In this document: piece by piece, positions 7,567-30,228 of the stretch
How positions within the stretch are numbered: the first letter of the stretch is position 1
Layout: every line of letters starts with the position of its first letter
DNA from: a virus
Virus record (IMG/VR): IMGVR_UViG_3300020419_000058
Span: 1 to 30,932 of that record
DNA: 30,932 nucleotides
Direction: 5' to 3' (one strand)
Notes under the pieces: model-generated
Database searches by the model: none
What the model was told of the DNA's origin: nothing
The model's input: only the letters and a program-made list of their open reading frames with translations
Program-made: the position numbers and the translations under genes

Positions 7567-8397
7567 ATGGAATACAGAGAGAGATATCTAGCAATTGTAT
7601 TACTCGATCTCATAGGCAGCACAGCTTTTGTGCAGAGGGCAGGGGCTATGAGGGGGGCAAAATGGCTGCAATATCATGACCGGCTAGCACGCTCATTAGT
7701 CTATAAATTTGAGGGGAGAGAGATTGATAGGTCAGATGGCTTTTTGCTCTCATTTGAGAGACCTATAGATGCAGTTAATTTTGCTCTTATCTATCAGCAG
7801 ACTGTACCCACTAAGACTAAGCTACAGGCTAGGATAGGTGTTCATTTTGGCAGGGTGGTAGAAGTGGCTCAGGATGAGCTACTAGTAGCAGTGGGGGCTA
7901 AGCAAGTAGAGCTAGAGGGCATTGCTAAAAATATAGCAGCACGCACCATGAGCCTATGCCAAGCAGGGCAGGTATTGCTAACAGCAGAAGCAATGAAAGC
8001 AGTTAAGCGTAGAACTAACACATTTACACCTAAAGGCACTCGCTATGCTCTGGCAGGTGAATACCGATTTAAAGGGGTTAAACGCCCTCAGATGATCTAT
8101 ACAGTAGGCGCAACCATTGAGAGTCTGCAGCCCCCACCCTCTACTGATAAAGTTAAGAAAGTGGCAGGGCCTAGCAGAATTAAAAGCCGGCTGAGAGATC
8201 GAAAATTAAAAGAGTGGATTTGGTGGGCACTCACAAGACTAGCCCTCATTAATTTGATATGGTTTATCTCTATTTTATGGCCCATCATCACTAGACCCCA
8301 TGCACGCAGGATGAGTGAGCTAGAGGGCCTTTTTTGGTGGGTAGATGATGTACTCCTATTTATTAGCATGATATTAGGGGGGCTGATTAATGGCTGA
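7567..8397 (+). CDS. Class III nucleotidyl cyclase with two C-terminal membrane helices
   Basis: A 276-aa protein. Residues 7-180 are a class III adenylyl/guanylyl cyclase homology domain. Metal-binding aspartates are D14 (VLLDLIGST) and D57 (RSDGFLLSF). GVHFGRVV at 91-98 matches the usual GIHTGEV strand. The ribose-orienting Asn and transition-state Arg are N122 and R126 (NIAAR). The closing AGEYRFKGVKRPQMIYTVG is the standard domain end. The base-selecting positions seem to be I53 and E115 by my alignment, instead of Lys/Asp of adenylyl or Glu/Cys of guanylyl cyclases, so the product (cAMP, cGMP, cCMP or cUMP) is open. Hydrophobic helices at about 217-241 and 255-274 anchor it in the membrane. 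Start has AAGGGGGG. It overlaps the next gene by 8 nt. Confidence 0.88.
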   Translation: MEYRERYLAIVLLDLIGSTAFVQRAGAMRGAKWLQYHDRLARSLVYKFEGREIDRSDGFLLSFERPIDAVNFALIYQQTVPTKTKLQARIGVHFGRVVEVAQDELLVAVGAKQVELEGIAKNIAARTMSLCQAGQVLLTAEAMKAVKRRTNTFTPKGTRYALAGEYRFKGVKRPQMIYTVGATIESLQPPPSTDKVKKVAGPSRIKSRLRDRKLKEWIWWALTRLALINLIWFISILWPIITRPHARRMSELEGLFWWVDDVLLFISMILGGLING

Positions 8398-8842
8398 GCA
8401 GACAGCAGTAGAGAGCGTGAGAGATCAGAAGCTGCGCAGGGGTTGGTGGTTTAGTGTCATCTTTTTGCTAATAGTAGTGTGCCTGATCTTATTCCTCACG
8501 TATGTAAAAATAGTTGATGAAAACCGAGACGTATTAGTAGGTATTTTAGGCATGATCACAGGCTCTATCTCTAGCATGATGGCTATAGCAAGTGGCAGAG
8601 ATCCCTCTGAGGTGGAAGAGTTAAAGGATAAACTCAGCTCAGCTAATGCAGATAGAGAGGCCCTCATAGCCAGATTGAGAGATGCACAGATTCAAATGCA
8701 GTTGAAAAATGATCACCTGCTAGATCTGCAATCTGCCATCATTAACCGGCTGAGTATGTTCTCTGATAAGCCACCCATCAAGCGCAGATCAGAGGATGAG
8801 GTAATTCTGCATCCTGATGTGGAGAGATGGCTAGATAAATAA
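8390..8842 (+). CDS. Two-helix membrane protein with coiled coil
   Basis: A 150-aa protein translated in an 8-nt overlap with the cyclase. After a charged start, a membrane helix spans about residues 19-40 (WWFSVIFLLIVVCLILFLTY) and a second about 47-67 (VLVGILGMITGSISSMMAIA). Residues 72-120 form an acidic/basic coiled coil (VEELKDKLSSANADREALIARL). The tail is charged (KRRSEDEVILHPDVERWLDK). No cyclic-nucleotide-binding fold is evident. It may be a partner or effector of the cyclase, or a holin- or spanin-like lysis protein, since Mu-like phages can keep lysis genes near terminase. A separate holin-like gene at 27939 weakens the lysis reading. Confidence 0.7.
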   Translation: MAEQTAVESVRDQKLRRGWWFSVIFLLIVVCLILFLTYVKIVDENRDVLVGILGMITGSISSMMAIASGRDPSEVEELKDKLSSANADREALIARLRDAQIQMQLKNDHLLDLQSAIINRLSMFSDKPPIKRRSEDEVILHPDVERWLDK

Positions 8843-10635: not shown

Positions 10636-12604
10636 AGCACAGACCCCCGCCCCACCTAAGGACAGAATTAAGGGCAGTAAGCGAAACCCTCAGGGCTCTG
10701 CAGCAGGTAGCAGAGGGGGCATTAAGATCGGGCCACAGGCTGAGAAGTCATTACAGAACCTATTAAATAAACATAAGGATAGGTACAAAGCACAATCTAA
10801 ACGTGTAGACATGGGCACACTTAAAGCTGTGTTTAGACGTGGTGCCGGTGCATTTAGTAGCAGCCATAGGCCTAACATGAATCGCACTCAATGGGCTCTA
10901 GCTAGAGTAAAAGCCTTTTTAAAATTAGTGGGCACAGGTGAGAGAAAAAAAGCCTATAATACTGATCTAGATCTACTACCTAAAGGCCATCCTCAGCGCA
11001 CTGAGAAGGGTGCAGAAGCTAAAGCGGAACTGAGTTCCGGTTTAACGCTAGCCCCTCAGAAATATGACCATATTGATTTTACCCCCCCTAAAGGTGCTCA
11101 GCAAGCGGCTAAACGTGCTTTAGAAGTGAGAGCCACTAAACCCCCCTCTCAAAGGGGCATGACCCCTGTAGGCATTGCTAGAGCTAGAGATTTAGCTAAT
11201 GGTGAAACCCTCAGCCCTGAGACGGTGCGCAGAATGTATGCTTATTTTAATAGGCATGAGGTAGATAAAAAAGGGGCCACATGGGATGAGCAGGGTAAAG
11301 GGTGGCAGGCATGGCATGGATGGGGGGGGGATGCAGGTTTCTCATGGTCTAAGAAATTGGTTAATCAGATGAATACAGCAGACAAAAAGACACAAGCTCT
11401 CAGGGCCTATGGTGAAGCTCTACAACTATCAGAGCCTATGCCGGCCTATGATGTGCCAGAGGGCCTGACCATAGGCAAGCCGTTTAAGACCCTTGCATTA
11501 GGTCAGGTAAGCAGCCGGATGAATGGCGATGCCATAGGTCAGGCCATAGATACTGATCTACTCACTGAAATGCTCAGAGTGTATAATGAGAGAAAGATCT
11601 CAGATCCTGTAATTATTGATTGGCAGCACGCTACTAGCCCATTCAATGGGGGCTCACCTGCCCCCCCTGAATCAGGCAATGCGTTAGGCCTAATCATTGA
11701 TTTAGATCTTAGAGATGATGGCCTATATGCTACCCCTGCTTATAATGAGCGGGGGCTAGAGGTCGTAAAAAATGCAGGGGGTGTGCTGTGGTCATCCCCT
11801 GAATTCATAGCCGGTGAGGTGTTTACAAGAGATGGAGGTAAACCCATAGGATCGGCACAATTACTAGCAATCACTTTAACCCCACGCCCTGCGCAATCTA
11901 ATGATAAAATTAGCAGGGTCACACTATCAGAAAGGCCCTCTATGATTGACAATCTAGAGTCTATGTCTGTTGATGATTTGCGCTCAATGCTCATTACTAA
12001 AGATGAGATGGTGCGTGAGTTGGAAGACAAGCTAAAAGAGATGAAAGCTGATTCTGAGTCTAAACTCACTGAGAAAAAGGATGAGGAAGATGCAGAGAAA
12101 ATGGCTGAGAAAAAGGATGATGAGGAGAAAGCAGAAACGCTAGCTCACACTCCTGAACACAAGGATGAGAAAAAAGGCTACAACATGAATGAGAATAGTA
12201 TCATGCTCTCAGAGGTCACTGCACTTAGAGAAGCTAATGCACAGCTATCAGAGCGGCTTGAAACTATTGAGTCTGAGAAACGTGCTGTAGAAATGAAAGC
12301 AGCAGTAGACAATTTACTTAGAGAGGGCCGCATCGCTCCATCAGATGAGGGCTATGCCAGAACGGCCTATGAGCTAAAAGAGCTACAGCCGGAATTTTGG
12401 AAAATGTTTTCAGAGCGACCTGCTAACAGTGCAGTGCCTTTGCAGAAAATAGGTCATGGTGCAAGCGGTGCAGAGATTAATCAAAAAGCACTGCATAAGC
12501 ACATTGAGGGAGTGGCAGAGGAAAAGGGCATCTTATTCTCAGAAGCTCTAAAGCACGTACAAAAAAATGAAACTGAATTTTATAATAAGGCTATGGGTGT
12601 TTAA
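10622..12604 (+). CDS. Head maturation protease (Mu gpI-like) with N-terminal extension and C-terminal scaffold
   Basis: A 660-aa multidomain protein. Residues about 60-110 hold a FRRGAGAFSSSHRP/WALARVKAFL segment. Residues about 155-250 hold a module often fused to phage proteases (GIARARDLANGETLSPETVRRM, read in pieces, then GWGGDAGFSW). Residues about 280-440 are the gpI-type protease: DPVIIDWQHAT, SGNALGLI, DGLYATPAYNERG and LWSSPEF. The rest is charged coiled coil (EKKDEEDAEKMAEKKDDEEK) and a scaffold-like end. It cleaves the scaffold and capsid during maturation. An internal start at 12185 may give the scaffold alone. A 25-bp palindromic element lies in a linker at 11020-11044. Confidence 0.85.
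   Translation: MAKTRAQTPAPPKDRIKGSKRNPQGSAAGSRGGIKIGPQAEKSLQNLLNKHKDRYKAQSKRVDMGTLKAVFRRGAGAFSSSHRPNMNRTQWALARVKAFLKLVGTGERKKAYNTDLDLLPKGHPQRTEKGAEAKAELSSGLTLAPQKYDHIDFTPPKGAQQAAKRALEVRATKPPSQRGMTPVGIARARDLANGETLSPETVRRMYAYFNRHEVDKKGATWDEQGKGWQAWHGWGGDAGFSWSKKLVNQMNTADKKTQALRAYGEALQLSEPMPAYDVPEGLTIGKPFKTLALGQVSSRMNGDAIGQAIDTDLLTEMLRVYNERKISDPVIIDWQHATSPFNGGSPAPPESGNALGLIIDLDLRDDGLYATPAYNERGLEVVKNAGGVLWSSPEFIAGEVFTRDGGKPIGSAQLLAITLTPRPAQSNDKISRVTLSERPSMIDNLESMSVDDLRSMLITKDEMVRELEDKLKEMKADSESKLTEKKDEEDAEKMAEKKDDEEKAETLAHTPEHKDEKKGYNMNENSIMLSEVTALREANAQLSERLETIESEKRAVEMKAAVDNLLREGRIAPSDEGYARTAYELKELQPEFWKMFSERPANSAVPLQKIGHGASGAEINQKALHKHIEGVAEEKGILFSEALKHVQKNETEFYNKAMGV
11020..11044 (-). repeat. 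25-bp palindromic element, copy in the protease gene
   Basis: An imperfect palindrome: outer TAAA/TTTA and inner CGGAACT/AGTTCCG around a central base. It is the exact reverse complement of the two copies at 28124-28148 and 28160-28184. Read in the protease frame it gives KAELSSGL, in a linker between domains. Confidence 0.85.
12185..12604 (+). CDS. Possible scaffold protein from an internal start
   Basis: An in-frame ATG at 12185 inside the protease gene has a good ribosome site, AAAAAGG at 12171-12177, seven bases upstream. Translation from it would give 139 aa: a coiled-coil start (MLSEVTALREANAQLSERLE) and a helical C-terminal part (KALHKHIEGVAEEKGILFSE). In Mu the scaffold Z is made from an internal start in the protease gene I, so this nested arrangement is expected by analogy. 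It would fill the prohead interior and be degraded by the protease. It shares its stop with the full-length protein. Confidence 0.5.
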   Translation: MNENSIMLSEVTALREANAQLSERLETIESEKRAVEMKAAVDNLLREGRIAPSDEGYARTAYELKELQPEFWKMFSERPANSAVPLQKIGHGASGAEINQKALHKHIEGVAEEKGILFSEALKHVQKNETEFYNKAMGV

Positions 12605-18664: not shown

Positions 18665-19089
18665 CTTCTGCTGTATGGCTCAATCATAGCAGGGGCAGAT
18701 CGTGGGCCTGTGATCAATGTAGATCTAAAAAGGGGCTGAGAGCCCTGAGGGGCAATTGTGGAGGGCCATTTAAACAAGGTCTTCCGCAAGCTCAAGTTGA
18801 TGATCAAGGGCTTTATATCATGGGCTATAGAGTCGCGCCTGATTGTGGCGAGGAGTATGCAGATTATGAGATCAGATCATGCCCTGTAGCAGGGGCTAAT
18901 CGAGTAGCCCCACTAGTGCAGGCGTATCAGCGACATAGAGCCGGCATATTATCTATAGACAAAAGCTATCCTACACCCTCATGTGCTCTAGTTGAAGCAA
19001 TTGAAATTCTACACTATAATGCAGATGAAGCACAGTACAGAACTAATGAACGTGCTATGAGAGAGGCCCATAATGTCAAATCAGGTTGA
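18655..19089 (+). CDS. Tail assembly chaperone extension (T part of GT fusion), made by -1 frameshift
   Basis: This frame (-1 relative to the short chaperone) is open from the slippery site to 19089 and adds 144 residues, for a fusion of about 314 aa. A first ATG appears only at 18820, without a clear ribosome site, which would leave 156 nt unexplained; the frameshift covers them. The extension begins IALASAVWLNHSRGRSWACD and carries Cys pairs (WACDQC, NCGG, then DCG and SCP), suggesting a zinc-binding fold. In lambda the T part binds the tape measure and GT joins it to tube protein. It overlaps the tape measure start by 17 nt. Confidence 0.8.
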   Translation: MALASAVWLNHSRGRSWACDQCRSKKGLRALRGNCGGPFKQGLPQAQVDDQGLYIMGYRVAPDCGEEYADYEIRSCPVAGANRVAPLVQAYQRHRAGILSIDKSYPTPSCALVEAIEILHYNADEAQYRTNERAMREAHNVKSG

Positions 19090-21190
19090 AATTGATGTCA
19101 TTCTCACAGGGGCTGAGGAGGCTAGCAGAGGGCTCAAGGGCATAGGTGAGACAGCCGGCCAAATGGCTGAGAGATTTACTGATGAGAATAGTAAATTAGG
19201 TGAGGGCTTAGGTGAGATTGCCGGCAGTGTAGAGGGGCTAGTAGGCTCATTTAAAGAATTTGGAGAAGTGGCGACTACTGTAGGCTCTGGCTCTAAGATG
19301 AGTATGCTAGCTCTAGTGCCGGCCTTAGGTGCAGTGGTAGGCGCAGGCTATGCCCTATATGAAACATTTATTAATATTAGTGGGGCTGCTGAAGAGGCTG
19401 AAACACGCACAGAAGCTATGGCAGCTGCTGCGAGTGATCTAGAGAGCAAATTAGAAGCTTTAGCAGAGAAAGGGGTAGTGCCTGCTCAGAAAGCTCTAGA
19501 TGATTTTATCAGGTCTAATCTGAGGGCTCAGTTTTCTAAAGAGATACTGCAGAAGCAGGTTGAAAAGCTAAAAAATGAGTTCACAAACTTATTAGAAGCA
19601 GAGCAAAATGTAGAGAAAGCACGCACAGGTCAAGAGGATTTTGCTACTGTATTAGAAGCAGGTCTAAGGGGGGTGAGTGCCCAAACAATAGCGCAAGAGG
19701 ATCTAAATAAGGCTACTACTGCATATAATAAAAAGCTAAAGGGGGTAATAGATGCACATGAGCAAGTGCTGCCCCTGCTAGATGCATCAGCTAAAAAAGA
19801 GAAGGGGCTAGAAGAAAATTCAGCAGAAGCCACTTTAGCCAGAGTGAGAGAAAATATTGCTCTAGCTACTACATTAGAACTCAGAAAAGCAGAGATTGAT
19901 CTTACAGGTACTCAGTTAAAAGTGAGACAAATTGAGATTAATGCAGCTAAAGAGAGCACACTAGTTAAAGTTAAAGAAAATGAAGAGGATGCCAAGGCCC
20001 TCAAGAAAATAGAGGACAATTTAAAGGCACGCATTGCAGAGTTTAATCAACTAGATCAGCTCAATAGACTAACAGAGGTGCGCAAAAGAAATGCAGAAGC
20101 AGAAGAAAACAAGGCCGCTAAACGATCTACTCAGCGTGTTAATAATAAGCGTATTCGAGAGATGGCCATTGAGAGACAAAGGCAGGCGGATCTCAAAAAG
20201 CTAAGACAAATAGAGCTACAAGAGTTAATGCTTAATGGGGCATCGGCTCTGCAGATTGCTCAAGATCGCTATGATGATGAGCTAGAAGCAGCCGGCAAAA
20301 ATCAATTACAACAGCAAATTGCTCTAAAGCGTTTTGAGCTAGAGAAAAGGCGCATAAAGCTAGTTGCAGGGGCTCAGGCTGATAGAGATAATGCTGAGAG
20401 GGCTAGACGTGATGAGGAGAGATTTGCTCATGCACAGAGATTAGCATTTGAGTCTCTGCAGTTTGATCTAGAAATGCAGACTCAAAAGGCTAGTCTAGTT
20501 GATGAGCTGCCCCTGTTTGGTAGATTAGGTGAGCTACAGGCACAGACAGATCAAGAGCTTAAAGTGTTGTCCATGAGATATGAGCTAGAAAAGCAGATTA
20601 ATGCTCAGACTCAAGATGAGATTACAGAACTCACTAGACGTGAGACAGCAGAGAGAACTAAAATTAATGCTGATGCAACTAGAGCGCAAATTAATCTAGT
20701 AGGTGAATTTGCATCACAGTATGCAGGGGGGCTAGCAGAAGCGGCCTATAACAATCTACTATTTGGTGAGAGCTTTAGTGAGTCAGTAGGTGAGATCCTC
20801 ATAGCATTAGGCAGACAGGCATCGATTGAAGCCCTCATGCAATTTGCCAAGGGTACAGCCGCCCTTTTTATGCCGGCAGGTCAAGCCATAGCAGCAGGCC
20901 ACTTTAAAGCCGGTGGTATGTTTCTAGCTGCAGCAGGGGCTGCAGGGATAGCCGGCAAAAGCTTAGGGGGTGGGGGCGGTGGTGCTTCTGCCGGTGCTTC
21001 TCCCTCTGGCTCACCATCAGTAGCCCCCACTCCTCAGCGTGAGGAGGTAGAGAGTGCGCCTATGGTGTTTAATATTAATTTTGGTGGGGCTGTGATCTAT
21101 GACACTAAACGCAGTGCAGAGCAGGCTCTAGCAGATCGAATTACATCATTACAGAATACACGCAGAAGAGGTGCAGCTAGGAGAGTCTAA
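19073..21190 (+). CDS. Tape measure protein
   Basis: A 705-aa, largely helical protein. After the opening VEIDVILTGAEEASRGLKGI comes a helix/glycine region with a hydrophobic stretch (MLALVPALGAVVGAGYALYE) and long coiled coils (residues about 110-540; NAEAEENKAAKRSTQRVNNK). The C-terminal part has membrane-active-like, Ala/Gly-rich helices (FMPAGQAIAAGHFKAGGMFL) then GGGGGGASAGASPSG. At about 0.15 nm per residue a tail of about 106 nm is expected. Its last stop codon adjoins the first parS site. Confidence 0.85.
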   Translation: MSNQVEIDVILTGAEEASRGLKGIGETAGQMAERFTDENSKLGEGLGEIAGSVEGLVGSFKEFGEVATTVGSGSKMSMLALVPALGAVVGAGYALYETFINISGAAEEAETRTEAMAAAASDLESKLEALAEKGVVPAQKALDDFIRSNLRAQFSKEILQKQVEKLKNEFTNLLEAEQNVEKARTGQEDFATVLEAGLRGVSAQTIAQEDLNKATTAYNKKLKGVIDAHEQVLPLLDASAKKEKGLEENSAEATLARVRENIALATTLELRKAEIDLTGTQLKVRQIEINAAKESTLVKVKENEEDAKALKKIEDNLKARIAEFNQLDQLNRLTEVRKRNAEAEENKAAKRSTQRVNNKRIREMAIERQRQADLKKLRQIELQELMLNGASALQIAQDRYDDELEAAGKNQLQQQIALKRFELEKRRIKLVAGAQADRDNAERARRDEERFAHAQRLAFESLQFDLEMQTQKASLVDELPLFGRLGELQAQTDQELKVLSMRYELEKQINAQTQDEITELTRRETAERTKINADATRAQINLVGEFASQYAGGLAEAAYNNLLFGESFSESVGEILIALGRQASIEALMQFAKGTAALFMPAGQAIAAGHFKAGGMFLAAAGAAGIAGKSLGGGGGGASAGASPSGSPSVAPTPQREEVESAPMVFNINFGGAVIYDTKRSAEQALADRITSLQNTRRRGAARRV

Positions 21191-21206
21191 TGTTTCACGT
21201 GAAACA
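21191..21206. promoter_or_regulatory. parS: parS site, copy 1
   Basis: TGTTTCACGTGAAACA is exactly the 16-bp consensus parS of bacterial chromosomes, the site on which ParB loads. It starts one base after the tape measure stop codon. Its flanks share TCTAA upstream with copy 2. Confidence 0.85.
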
Positions 21207-21232
21207 ATTTGCAATCATGTTAAACACTCTAA

Positions 21233-21248
21233 TGTTTCACGTGAAACA
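21233..21248. promoter_or_regulatory. parS: parS site, copy 2
   Basis: A second identical TGTTTCACGTGAAACA, 42 bp after the first start to start, or about four helical turns. With flanks it becomes a 20-bp perfect palindrome (AATGTTTCACGTGAAACATT). It ends 14 bp before the next gene, whose ribosome site GAGGGGG follows. Confidence 0.85.
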
Positions 21249-21262
21249 TTGAGGGGGATACT

Positions 21263-22468
21263 ATGCCATTAAATAACCCTGCGCCTAATTTCGCACTGCT
21301 CACAGCATGGGATATGAGAAGTCTCTCTAATACCACTGTGTTTACTCGAAACTCTAATAATATCACCCTGCCCACCTTCTCAGCCGGTCAAGGGGTGTAT
21401 GAGGATGTATTATTTTTTCTCAATGGTCGTATAAGCTCAGGGTCTGTATATGGCACAGGTCAATTCTCAGTGGCTACCTTTGGCTCATCATGGGCTATAT
21501 CTATTAATTCATCTGATAAAATACAGATCTCATCTAATACTAATTTTACTGTGACAAATACCGGCACAATTGACTCCCTAGGCTATGGCTCATCTATTGT
21601 CTCTGCTGTGCTGTCTGGCAGTACATACACAGCCACAGCCCCTAATGATTGGCTCAGGGGTTTAGTTGATCTATCAGATATGAGCTATAAAATAGATGAA
21701 GTGGGGGGCAGCAGTAGCACATTTAATATCCCTGCTGTGCTTACTGATGTGCAAGATGTCACTACATTTTTAAGAGCTTCGGGTTCAGGGGATGCTGATG
21801 ATTTTGGGCTGACCTCTCTACAAGCTCTAGATAATGATGCCGCAGGGGTGTCTGCTGATGATATTACATGGAATGTAACAAACTCAGGCTTTGCTCAATG
21901 CACATTTAGGACATCATTAGGGGGTATTACATGGGTAAGCACTGCCCTAAGAAATCTGCTAGGTTTCACCGGTTTAGAGACTGCTGTAGTAGATGGCACA
22001 CGCAGCCGGCTAACTAGTACATACAGAATACAGGGCGTTTTATTCCCCTCAAGGCCTTATCAAAATCATCATTTAAAAGTGGAAAATCTCAGCCAGAGTA
22101 GGCGCAAAATAGGCGGGGGGTATACATCTAATTACATTGGTACGTATGTCACTAGCTCACTGCTATTTGATCTAGATGCCAATTTAGATAGCCATGATGA
22201 CTATAGGCATATGACTAATAAATTTGCGCCCCTCTGTAGCAATGGTGAGCAGATCAATTTTTATCAGGCATGGGGGGATAGCAGACGCACCCTCATTACT
22301 GAAGATGTGAATGCAGAGCAGCCGGCCTATGATAGCCTATATACATCTGAGGGCAATGGCGATACAGGGCGCATTAGGGGCACTCTCCTGACTGCTGAAT
22401 TTGATCTTAGCTACCCCACTAGACTTAGGCGCAGGGTGCCGGTAAATATGGAGATCGAGCATTTATGA
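21263..22468 (+). CDS. Putative tail protein (distal tail region)
   Basis: A 401-aa protein after the tape measure and parS sites, the position of distal tail or baseplate genes. The first 20 residues (PNFALLTAWDMRSLSNT) start a Ser/Thr/Asn-rich beta region to about residue 250. A later part has KVENLSQSRRKIGGGYTSNY and ANLDSHDDYRHMTNKF. The whole is polar with no membrane segment. I do not recognise a family. The ATG has a strong ribosome site and it overlaps the next gene by ATGA. Confidence 0.65.
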   Translation: MPLNNPAPNFALLTAWDMRSLSNTTVFTRNSNNITLPTFSAGQGVYEDVLFFLNGRISSGSVYGTGQFSVATFGSSWAISINSSDKIQISSNTNFTVTNTGTIDSLGYGSSIVSAVLSGSTYTATAPNDWLRGLVDLSDMSYKIDEVGGSSSTFNIPAVLTDVQDVTTFLRASGSGDADDFGLTSLQALDNDAAGVSADDITWNVTNSGFAQCTFRTSLGGITWVSTALRNLLGFTGLETAVVDGTRSRLTSTYRIQGVLFPSRPYQNHHLKVENLSQSRRKIGGGYTSNYIGTYVTSSLLFDLDANLDSHDDYRHMTNKFAPLCSNGEQINFYQAWGDSRRTLITEDVNAEQPAYDSLYTSEGNGDTGRIRGTLLTAEFDLSYPTRLRRRVPVNMEIEHL

Positions 22469-27946: not shown

Positions 27947-28205
27947 GCTTACATTAACTGAGAGGCTAGGAGGGCGCAAGGCTCTAGCGTTTTATGCTGC
28001 ATTAGGCTGCTCTTTTACTCTAGCTCTATTAGATAAGGCACATGCAGAAGTGCTAGGCCTAATTGATACTCTATTTTTTATTTATGCAGGGGCTAATGTC
28101 ATGGCTAAACGCCAGAGCCCTATTAAACCGGAACTCAGTTCCGCTTTACAGCAAAACCCTAAACCGGAACTCAGTTCCGCTTTATCTCAGGAGCACACAC
28201 CATGA
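27939..28205 (+). CDS. Holin-like small membrane protein
   Basis: I choose ATG 27939 (MSELTLTERLGG), with AGGT before it, over an in-frame GTG at 27930. The product is about 88 aa. Residues about 15-55 hold two hydrophobic stretches (ALAFYAALGCSFTLALLD and VLGLIDTLFFIYAGANVM), as in small holins. The tail has two copies of KPELSSAL encoded by a palindromic DNA element. Its 8-nt overlap with the lysin gene supports a lysis cassette. It overlaps the next gene by ATGA. Confidence 0.6.
   Translation: MSELTLTERLGGRKALAFYAALGCSFTLALLDKAHAEVLGLIDTLFFIYAGANVMAKRQSPIKPELSSALQQNPKPELSSALSQEHTP
28124..28148 (+). repeat. 25-bp palindromic element, copy 1 in holin-like gene
   Basis: Same palindrome as at 11020-11044 but in the opposite direction. 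In the gene's frame it reads KPELSSAL. Inner arms CGGAACT and AGTTCCG flank one base. Confidence 0.85.
28160..28184 (+). repeat. 25-bp palindromic element, copy 2 in holin-like gene
   Basis: Identical to the copy at 28124-28148, 36 bp later and in the same frame. Both copies follow an ACCCTA- or CCCTAT-type flank, which suggests that a slightly larger unit was duplicated. Confidence 0.85.
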
Positions 28206-28593: not shown

Positions 28594-30228
28594 ATGGCAA
28601 TTTCACTAGGTGGGTTTTCAGGGGGTGGGGGTGGTGCTTCTACAGATACGCTTGATGATGTCACAGGCAGAGGGGCTACTACTACTAATGCAGTCACTGT
28701 AGGCGGCCTGAGCATAGGCACAGCTTACACTATGCCTACTTCTGATGGTTCTGCTAATCAGGTGCTCTCGACAGATGGCTCAGGCTCTATCTTATTCAGT
28801 ACTCTGAATATTACAGGGGGGCTAGAGTACAAAGGGGCATTTAATGCGACAGCCGGCACACCCTCTATAGCTAATGCTGAGAAAGGTGATTTTTATATTA
28901 TTGATACAGCCGGCACAATTTACGGTCAGACATGGGGTGTAGGTGATCACCTGCTGATTAATGAAAATATGGGCGGGTCTGTTACCAATTCTAAAATTGA
29001 TAAAATTGACAATACAGATGCAGTTAGCTCAGTGAATGGGCAGACAGGGCCTGTAAGCTTAGGAGTAGGCAATCTATCAGATGTCACTATCACAGGGGCG
29101 GCTAATGGCGAGGTGCTCAAGTATGATGGCTCAGCATGGGTAGATGCTACGCTTGCATATTCTGAGATCAGTGGCACGCCTACCAATATCTCTACATTTA
29201 CAAATGACTCAAACTATTTAACAGCTATTACAGGGCAGAGCATCGGCAGTCTCTCTGATGTGACTATTACAAGTGCCGCAAATGGGCAGGTCATTAGTTA
29301 TAATGGCAGTGCATGGGTCAATTCTGCAGCTTCTGCCGGCTCACTCGCAGGCCTATCAGATGTGACTATTACAGGGGCGGCTAATGGCGAGGTGCTCAAG
29401 TATGATGGCTCAGCATGGGTGGATGCCACACTCGCATATTCTGAGATCAGTGGCACGCCTACCAATGTCTCTGATTTTACAAATGACTCAAACTATTTAA
29501 CAGCTATTACAGGGCAGAGCATAGGCAGTCTCTCTGATGTGACTATTACAGGGGCGGCTAATGGCGAATACCTTAGATATAATGGCAGTGCATGGGTAGA
29601 TGCTGCGCTAGGTATTGCTGATGATACATCACCTAGCCTAGGTGGTAATTTAGATGTATCTGGCAATGATATAATCAGCGCGTCTAATGGAGCTATTGAG
29701 ATTGCCCCTGATGGCACAGGCTCAGTAATTATTAAGGGTAATACTGCAGCTTCTGCGACCAACACAGGGCACATTAAATTAAACTGTGAAAATAATAGTC
29801 ATCATGTAAAAATCGCAGCTCCTGCACATGCAGCGATTAGCGCAGGTGGCAGCTATACACTCACCCTGCCGGCAGATGATGGCGATGCTAATGAGGTATT
29901 ACAGACAGATGGATCAGGTAATTTATCATGGGTGGCCCAAAGTGGGGGGAGCGGTGGAGGCTTTACTTACTCAGCAATTAGCAGCACTACACCAGCACAG
30001 GCACAATATCACTATAGTTGTACAGGTACATTTACGCTGACCCTACCTGCTGCATCAGGTATCACTGCGGGTGAAGAGATTAGAGTTAAAAATATGGGAA
30101 CAGGCACGATTACAATTGACCGATCATCAACAGATACAATTGATGCTCAAGCTAGCATTACACTAGGGGTACAGTACCAAATGTTAAGCTTTGTCTCTAA
30201 TGGATCAAATGGGTATGAGGTGATCTAA
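28594..30228 (+). CDS. Tail fibre protein with internal repeats
   Basis: A 544-aa fibre-type protein. It opens with a Gly-rich stretch (FSGGGGGAS). Four units of LSDVTIT-(G/S)-AANG followed by Y-x-GSAW lie between about residues 160 and 340, encoded by a duplicated 279-bp unit. Next come GNLDVSGNDIISASNGAIEI and PDGTGSVIIKG, phrases common in fibres of cyanophages and other aquatic phages, and a C-terminal beta domain. Such repeats usually make a trimeric, extended shaft that carries a receptor-binding tip. Start has AAAGGAT upstream. It joins the next gene by TAATG. Confidence 0.75.
   Translation: MAISLGGFSGGGGGASTDTLDDVTGRGATTTNAVTVGGLSIGTAYTMPTSDGSANQVLSTDGSGSILFSTLNITGGLEYKGAFNATAGTPSIANAEKGDFYIIDTAGTIYGQTWGVGDHLLINENMGGSVTNSKIDKIDNTDAVSSVNGQTGPVSLGVGNLSDVTITGAANGEVLKYDGSAWVDATLAYSEISGTPTNISTFTNDSNYLTAITGQSIGSLSDVTITSAANGQVISYNGSAWVNSAASAGSLAGLSDVTITGAANGEVLKYDGSAWVDATLAYSEISGTPTNVSDFTNDSNYLTAITGQSIGSLSDVTITGAANGEYLRYNGSAWVDAALGIADDTSPSLGGNLDVSGNDIISASNGAIEIAPDGTGSVIIKGNTAASATNTGHIKLNCENNSHHVKIAAPAHAAISAGGSYTLTLPADDGDANEVLQTDGSGNLSWVAQSGGSGGGFTYSAISSTTPAQAQYHYSCTGTFTLTLPAASGITAGEEIRVKNMGTGTITIDRSSTDTIDAQASITLGVQYQMLSFVSNGSNGYEVI
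29074..29554 (+). repeat. 279-bp direct duplication in fibre gene
   Basis: About 200 bp from 29074 recurs from 29353 with few changes, at a constant offset of 279 bp (93 codons). Long runs of identical bases show the duplication is recent. Recombination between copies would change fibre length in frame. Confidence 0.85.

Follow-up and report, generated by a model that had tools for sequence, protein, structure and literature searches.

The window analysed here, the whole of a linear IMG/VR virus record of 30.9 kb from an uncultured family (relatives have about 36 kb, and a few kb may be absent from the record), carries two perfect parS sites of the type found on bacterial chromosomes in a gap of its tail operon. 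The explanation that we favour, with a probability of roughly 0.6, is that the two sites dock the ParB protein of the host and thereby tether or segregate the phage DNA. The features of the region are:

19073 to 21190, plus strand: upstream gene, putative tape measure protein of 705 amino acids (label from size and gene order only)
21186 to 21206, plus strand: first copy of a 21-bp direct repeat, TCTAATGTTTCACGTGAAACA, overlapping the upstream stop codon
21190 to 21252, plus strand: 20-codon open reading frame (MFHVKQFAIMLNTLMFHVKH, then stop) across both sites, probably incidental
21191 to 21262, plus strand: intergenic insertion of 72 bp, between the reading frame ending at 21190 and the one starting at 21263
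21191 to 21206, no strand: parS site 1, TGTTTCACGTGAAACA, perfect match to the consensus
21228 to 21248, plus strand: second copy of the 21-bp direct repeat
21233 to 21248, no strand: parS site 2, TGTTTCACGTGAAACA, perfect, at -30 to -15 relative to the downstream start codon
21263 to 22468, plus strand: downstream tail-module gene, 401 amino acids, kept across the family at 53-72% identity

Both sites are 16-bp palindromes matching TGTTNCACGTGAAACA, the parS consensus of B. subtilis (PMC7022226). An earlier note, made from the DNA letters, had called the site one of the host type, and with both copies matching this consensus the description stands. The window has exactly two perfect copies, 42 bp apart from start to start and 26 bp from edge to edge, and no further match with up to three mismatches; 0.02 are expected in shuffled sequences at this threshold. 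The earlier note was thus exact in placing both copies in the 72-bp gap after the putative tape measure gene and right to exclude chance. At 21 bp, with a period of 42 bp, the repeated unit exceeds parS in length, which suggests that a parS-bearing stretch beside the stop codon was duplicated. The putative tape measure protein has no Pfam or PHROG family match, and no known domain was found in the 401-amino-acid protein. A leader peptide running across both sites (MFHVKQ...MFHVKH, then stop) was considered and rejected, as neither frame nor stop is kept in the nearest relative.

Head genes of the window match the PHROG portal, protease and capsid families, and further genes encode an SSB, a DnaC-like ATPase and an N6/N4 DNA methyltransferase. 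As the earlier note had stated, no parA or parB is in view: ParB_N (PF02195) has no match in the window (which may miss a few kb), its nearest relative or four more relatives, and ParA (PF13614, AAA_31) has none in any of 22 family records (the window and 21 relatives, the majority 31-39 kb long). Tyrosine integrases (PF00589), the integrase type that was searched for systematically, are absent from the same 22 records, and because of this absence the family looks non-integrating. No tRNA genes were found. Searches of 84,980 species genomes of bacteria and archaea with the capsid and the terminase identified no relative, and neither protein has a match among the reference phages. With no tyrosine integrase in the family and no relative in these species genomes, the assumption of a prophage or episome in the earlier note is unsupported.

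Other parts of the window have unusual features of their own. A second perfect palindrome, CGGAACTNAGTTCCG, lies inside a nearly perfect 25-bp palindrome (TAAACCGGAACTCAGTTCCGCTTTA) at 11025-11039, 28129-28143 and 28165-28179; all three copies (0.02 expected) are in coding sequence, two of them 36 bp apart. It is absent from all 370 loci examined and from the reference phages, and is possibly a site for another host factor. A class III nucleotide-cyclase-like gene (7567-8397; Pfam PF00211, E 3e-6) overlaps a small membrane-protein gene (8390-8842); the pair is conserved in the family and unusual in a phage, and PADLOC assigns it no known signalling-defence component. The putative tail-fibre gene holds a tandem duplication of 254 bp with 90% identity (29074-29327 and 29353-29606).

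ParB is a CTP-dependent clamp that loads at parS, spreads and recruits ParA and SMC (PMC7022226; PMC12704722). If docking is the correct explanation, both palindromes would serve the host's chromosomal ParB CTPase as parS sites, with the phage supplying no detectable ParA or ParB. After entry of the phage DNA, dimers of host ParB would load at both sites, close as clamps and slide onto the neighbouring phage DNA; the loaded ParB would link the phage genome to ParA and/or SMC of the host, and this link would tether, position or segregate the phage DNA with the host origin in a slow or stalled infection. Recruitment of host ParB, proposed already in the earlier note, is the best reading of host-type sites in a phage with no parAB of its own in sight. 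Binding by the host's ParB is likely, and we infer that the benefit would come through tethering or segregation.

The parS element is not a family trait. There are 306 viral contigs related to the window by their capsid, and the junction between the tape measure gene and the next gene is covered in the loci of 61 relatives. At 60 of these 61 junctions the genes overlap or abut (gap of -11 to 3 bp), and the junction sequence examined in these 60 has no parS-like site with up to two mismatches. Only contig 3300008050_000405 (L130/L203), the nearest relative, has a junction gap: it is 41 bp long and contains one copy, TGTTCCACATGAAACA, which occupies -30 to -15 relative to the start codon, exactly as the second copy in the window does; the downstream protein is 72% identical between the two phages. 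The earlier note had asked whether the 16-mer is kept in the same gap of relatives; mostly it is not, with 60 of 61 having neither gap nor site and the nearest only one degenerate copy. It had also named a lack of both sites in related phages as a refutation of its reading, and most relatives do lack them. As most relatives have neither site, the element is limited to one subclade and was acquired within that lineage.

The copy in the nearest relative keeps 14 of the 16 bases. Measured against 4-fold degenerate sites, which are 42% identical between the two phages, such retention has a P of about 2e-4; with overall nucleotide identity (68%) as the neutral yardstick, P is only 0.07. The TGTTCCACATGAAACA variant is not among the 195 sites of the paired viral loci described below and may be a weak or decayed, non-functional site. 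The element is thus probably, but not certainly, under selection. Another sequence, GGTTCCACGTGGAACA, was considered as a conserved parS in ten relatives and rejected: it falls in conserved codons of the protease gene (KKGSTWN).

Paired parS sites recur in other viruses. A scan of IMG/VR for two parS-like sites 10-40 bp apart, with two palindromes with altered cores as controls, identified 102 stretches for parS and none for either control. ParB_N is rare in 80 pair-bearing viral records: it was found in 5 of 50 (3 over the cut-off) and in none of another 30. After removal of near-duplicates, 59 of 70 pair loci are intergenic; in the other 11 the parS lies within predicted open reading frames, at times as in-frame tandem repeats (L211:2833-2938, L245:7102-7224, L251, L264). 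Phage terminase, portal, capsid and tail families are represented among the reading frames flanking the pairs, indicating that many of the contigs are phages rather than origin fragments, and some pairs adjoin DNA polymerase or recombination genes. The closest parallel to the window is locus L267, with a pair (TGTTCCACGTGGAACA) in the gap directly 3' of a tape-measure gene. Two loci (L011 and L256), which resemble phi29 in their head, tail and connector genes, have two or three parS sites between structural genes. Locus L214 has a parS pair beside a neck gene, and its portal is 29% identical to the window portal.

A search of the reference phages with a 20-bp parS query matched 212 records, including 35 unannotated 'Listeria phage' records that may be virome contigs rather than isolates, compared with 5 and 0 for the control palindromes; the 5 control matches are all from one Erwinia lineage and lie inside an RNA polymerase gene. 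Among the matches listed, hosts are Bacillus, Lactobacillus, actinobacteria (Microbacterium, Gordonia, Arthrobacter), Ruegeria, Butyrivibrio and others, with no enterobacterial phage among them. Seven of the matching reference phages, each searched in full (B103, bajarodino virus 3, DSS3P8, Arian, BcoS-136, Racecar and Bacchae), have no match to ParB_N or AAA_31. Bajarodino virus 3 (L312), a filamentous phage (inovirus) of 6.2 kb, has six perfect parS sites and no detected ParA or ParB. The sequence specificity resides in the parS core, which recurs in ParB-less phages, apparently independently. The gaps between structural genes may just be spots where an insertion is harmless. One candidate, TGTTTCACGTGAAACC in locus L190, was rejected as parS: it is within thyX, where coding for the GVSRET motif can by itself produce a parS sequence. 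The GVSRET codons at L190:4952-4967 give a near-perfect parS (GTTTCACGTGAAAC), a pitfall for naive parS scans of genomes and phages.

Several other explanations of the two sites were weighed. Host ParB could act at the sites as a roadblock or sliding clamp that damps late (tail) transcription according to the state of the host and so delays the lytic programme. Site 2 is located within the late operon, with 14 bp between it and the start codon that follows; in other phages, too, many pairs are found within structural operons, and ParB and its relatives can repress nearby promoters (PMC5521831, PMC11790492). Still, such operators are rather unlikely: no sigma-70-like promoter was found at the 72-bp gap, and pairs that are next to DNA polymerase or recombination genes or inside coding sequence fit tethering of the genome better than control of one operon. 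That the sites are decoys, with many replicated phage copies titrating ParB off the host origins and disturbing chromosome segregation or replication control for the benefit of the phage, is improbable. The phage is apparently non-integrating, and a high copy number during infection would multiply its two perfect sites; against this, there are just two sites per genome, and the gain is unclear because ParB is non-essential in many bacteria (PMC7022226).

Very little probability goes to an element acting in the mRNA, where the palindromes would form an 18-bp stem or single hairpins that govern translation or stability between the two genes. A 111-nt region does fold at -28.5 kcal/mol (z = -2.6) with both sites paired, but such a stem arises from any two identical palindromes and the gap is no intrinsic terminator. 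This reading is further weakened by the nearest relative, whose single site has lost the hairpin: it has uncompensated changes and folds at -1.5 kcal/mol (z = +1.2, no better than shuffles), compared with -6.6 kcal/mol for a window site. The absence of the control palindromes from viral contigs likewise indicates that the exact parS sequence matters, rather than mere self-complementarity. Finally, the sites could be a neutral passenger, a captured parS fragment that was duplicated as a 42-bp tandem unit and has no function in the window phage. Almost all relatives are without the sites, the repeat resembles a recent duplication and the site of the nearest relative is degenerate, all as expected for a passenger. 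We nevertheless regard this as unlikely, given that both window copies are perfect, that the orthologous site of the nearest relative is better kept than neutral sites and that the same arrangement recurs independently in many phages. In favour of docking on host ParB we counted the perfect consensus present twice, the lack of detectable parAB, the recurrence in unrelated ParB-less phages, the precedent of phi29 described below and the position kept in the nearest relative; counted against it were the about 60 relatives that do without the sites, the possibly decayed variant and the P value obtained with the 68% yardstick.

The earlier note knew of no described case of such an arrangement, which was incorrect: the virulent phage phi29 is a precedent, its chromosome reportedly being taken into the spore by host Spo0J (ParB) (PMC9437464, citing Meijer 2005), and the site is present in hundreds of other phage records. 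The present case differs from phi29 in concerning an unrelated, apparently non-integrating phage group and in having its sites as a pair within a gap of the tail operon. No general survey of ParB-less phages that carry host parS turned up in the open-access literature searched, the coverage of which was incomplete. We would give about even odds to a wider reading, in which borrowing of the host centromere is widespread and convergent: many phages that are unrelated to each other and lack partition genes, among them virulent, single-stranded DNA and filamentous ones, would carry clustered host-type parS, often between structural genes, and enlist host ParB, ParA and SMC to position or keep their DNA, with the window as a clean case outside the phi29 group. 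If host ParB does load at these sites, a phage without partition genes rides on the chromosome-segregation or condensin machinery for free, without integrating. This would account for the persistence of some apparently virulent phages in cells that grow slowly or divide, and a mechanism known from phi29 would then hold for many phage groups. The 102 paired-site stretches, with none for the controls, and the 212 reference records make the question testable now, as many carriers are phages in culture whose hosts are easy to handle in the laboratory (Bacillus, Microbacterium, Gordonia, Arthrobacter, Lactobacillus and Ruegeria).

Among known systems, the parS sites of chromosomal ParABS have the same 16-bp sequence and are likewise present in clustered copies, but those of the window are carried by a phage, remote from any oriC, parA or parB; the chromosomal consensus is attributed to Livny 2007. 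Extrachromosomal phages with parABS (P1 and the actinobacteriophages) also have centromere sites on phage DNA, but encode their own ParA and ParB, whereas neither of these, nor a tyrosine integrase, was detected in the window; P1-type and actinobacteriophage parABS use site sequences that differ from host parS. Closer in arrangement are two phages with host-type parS in a gap of the tail operon: Butyrivibrio phage Arian, where it follows the major tail gene, and L267, where a pair comes directly after the tape-measure gene. Neither has a match to the window proteins tested, so that the tail-gap arrangement probably arose separately. The phi29-like phages (phi29, Nf, B103) are not recognisable kin of the window phage: window proteins have no match to B103 (L311), and neither capsid nor terminase matches a reference phage, which speaks against Salasmaviridae. 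B103 carries TGTTTCACGTGAAACA and TGTTTCACGTGGAACA 5.5 kb apart and overlapping genes, whereas the window sites form a pair, spaced 42 bp, within a gap of a long-tail operon. The partition role of phi29 concerns sporulation and need not transfer to the window phage, whose host need not sporulate. What the window phage has in common with this virulent group, and with B103 in particular, is a host-type parS in the genome of a phage without parAB.
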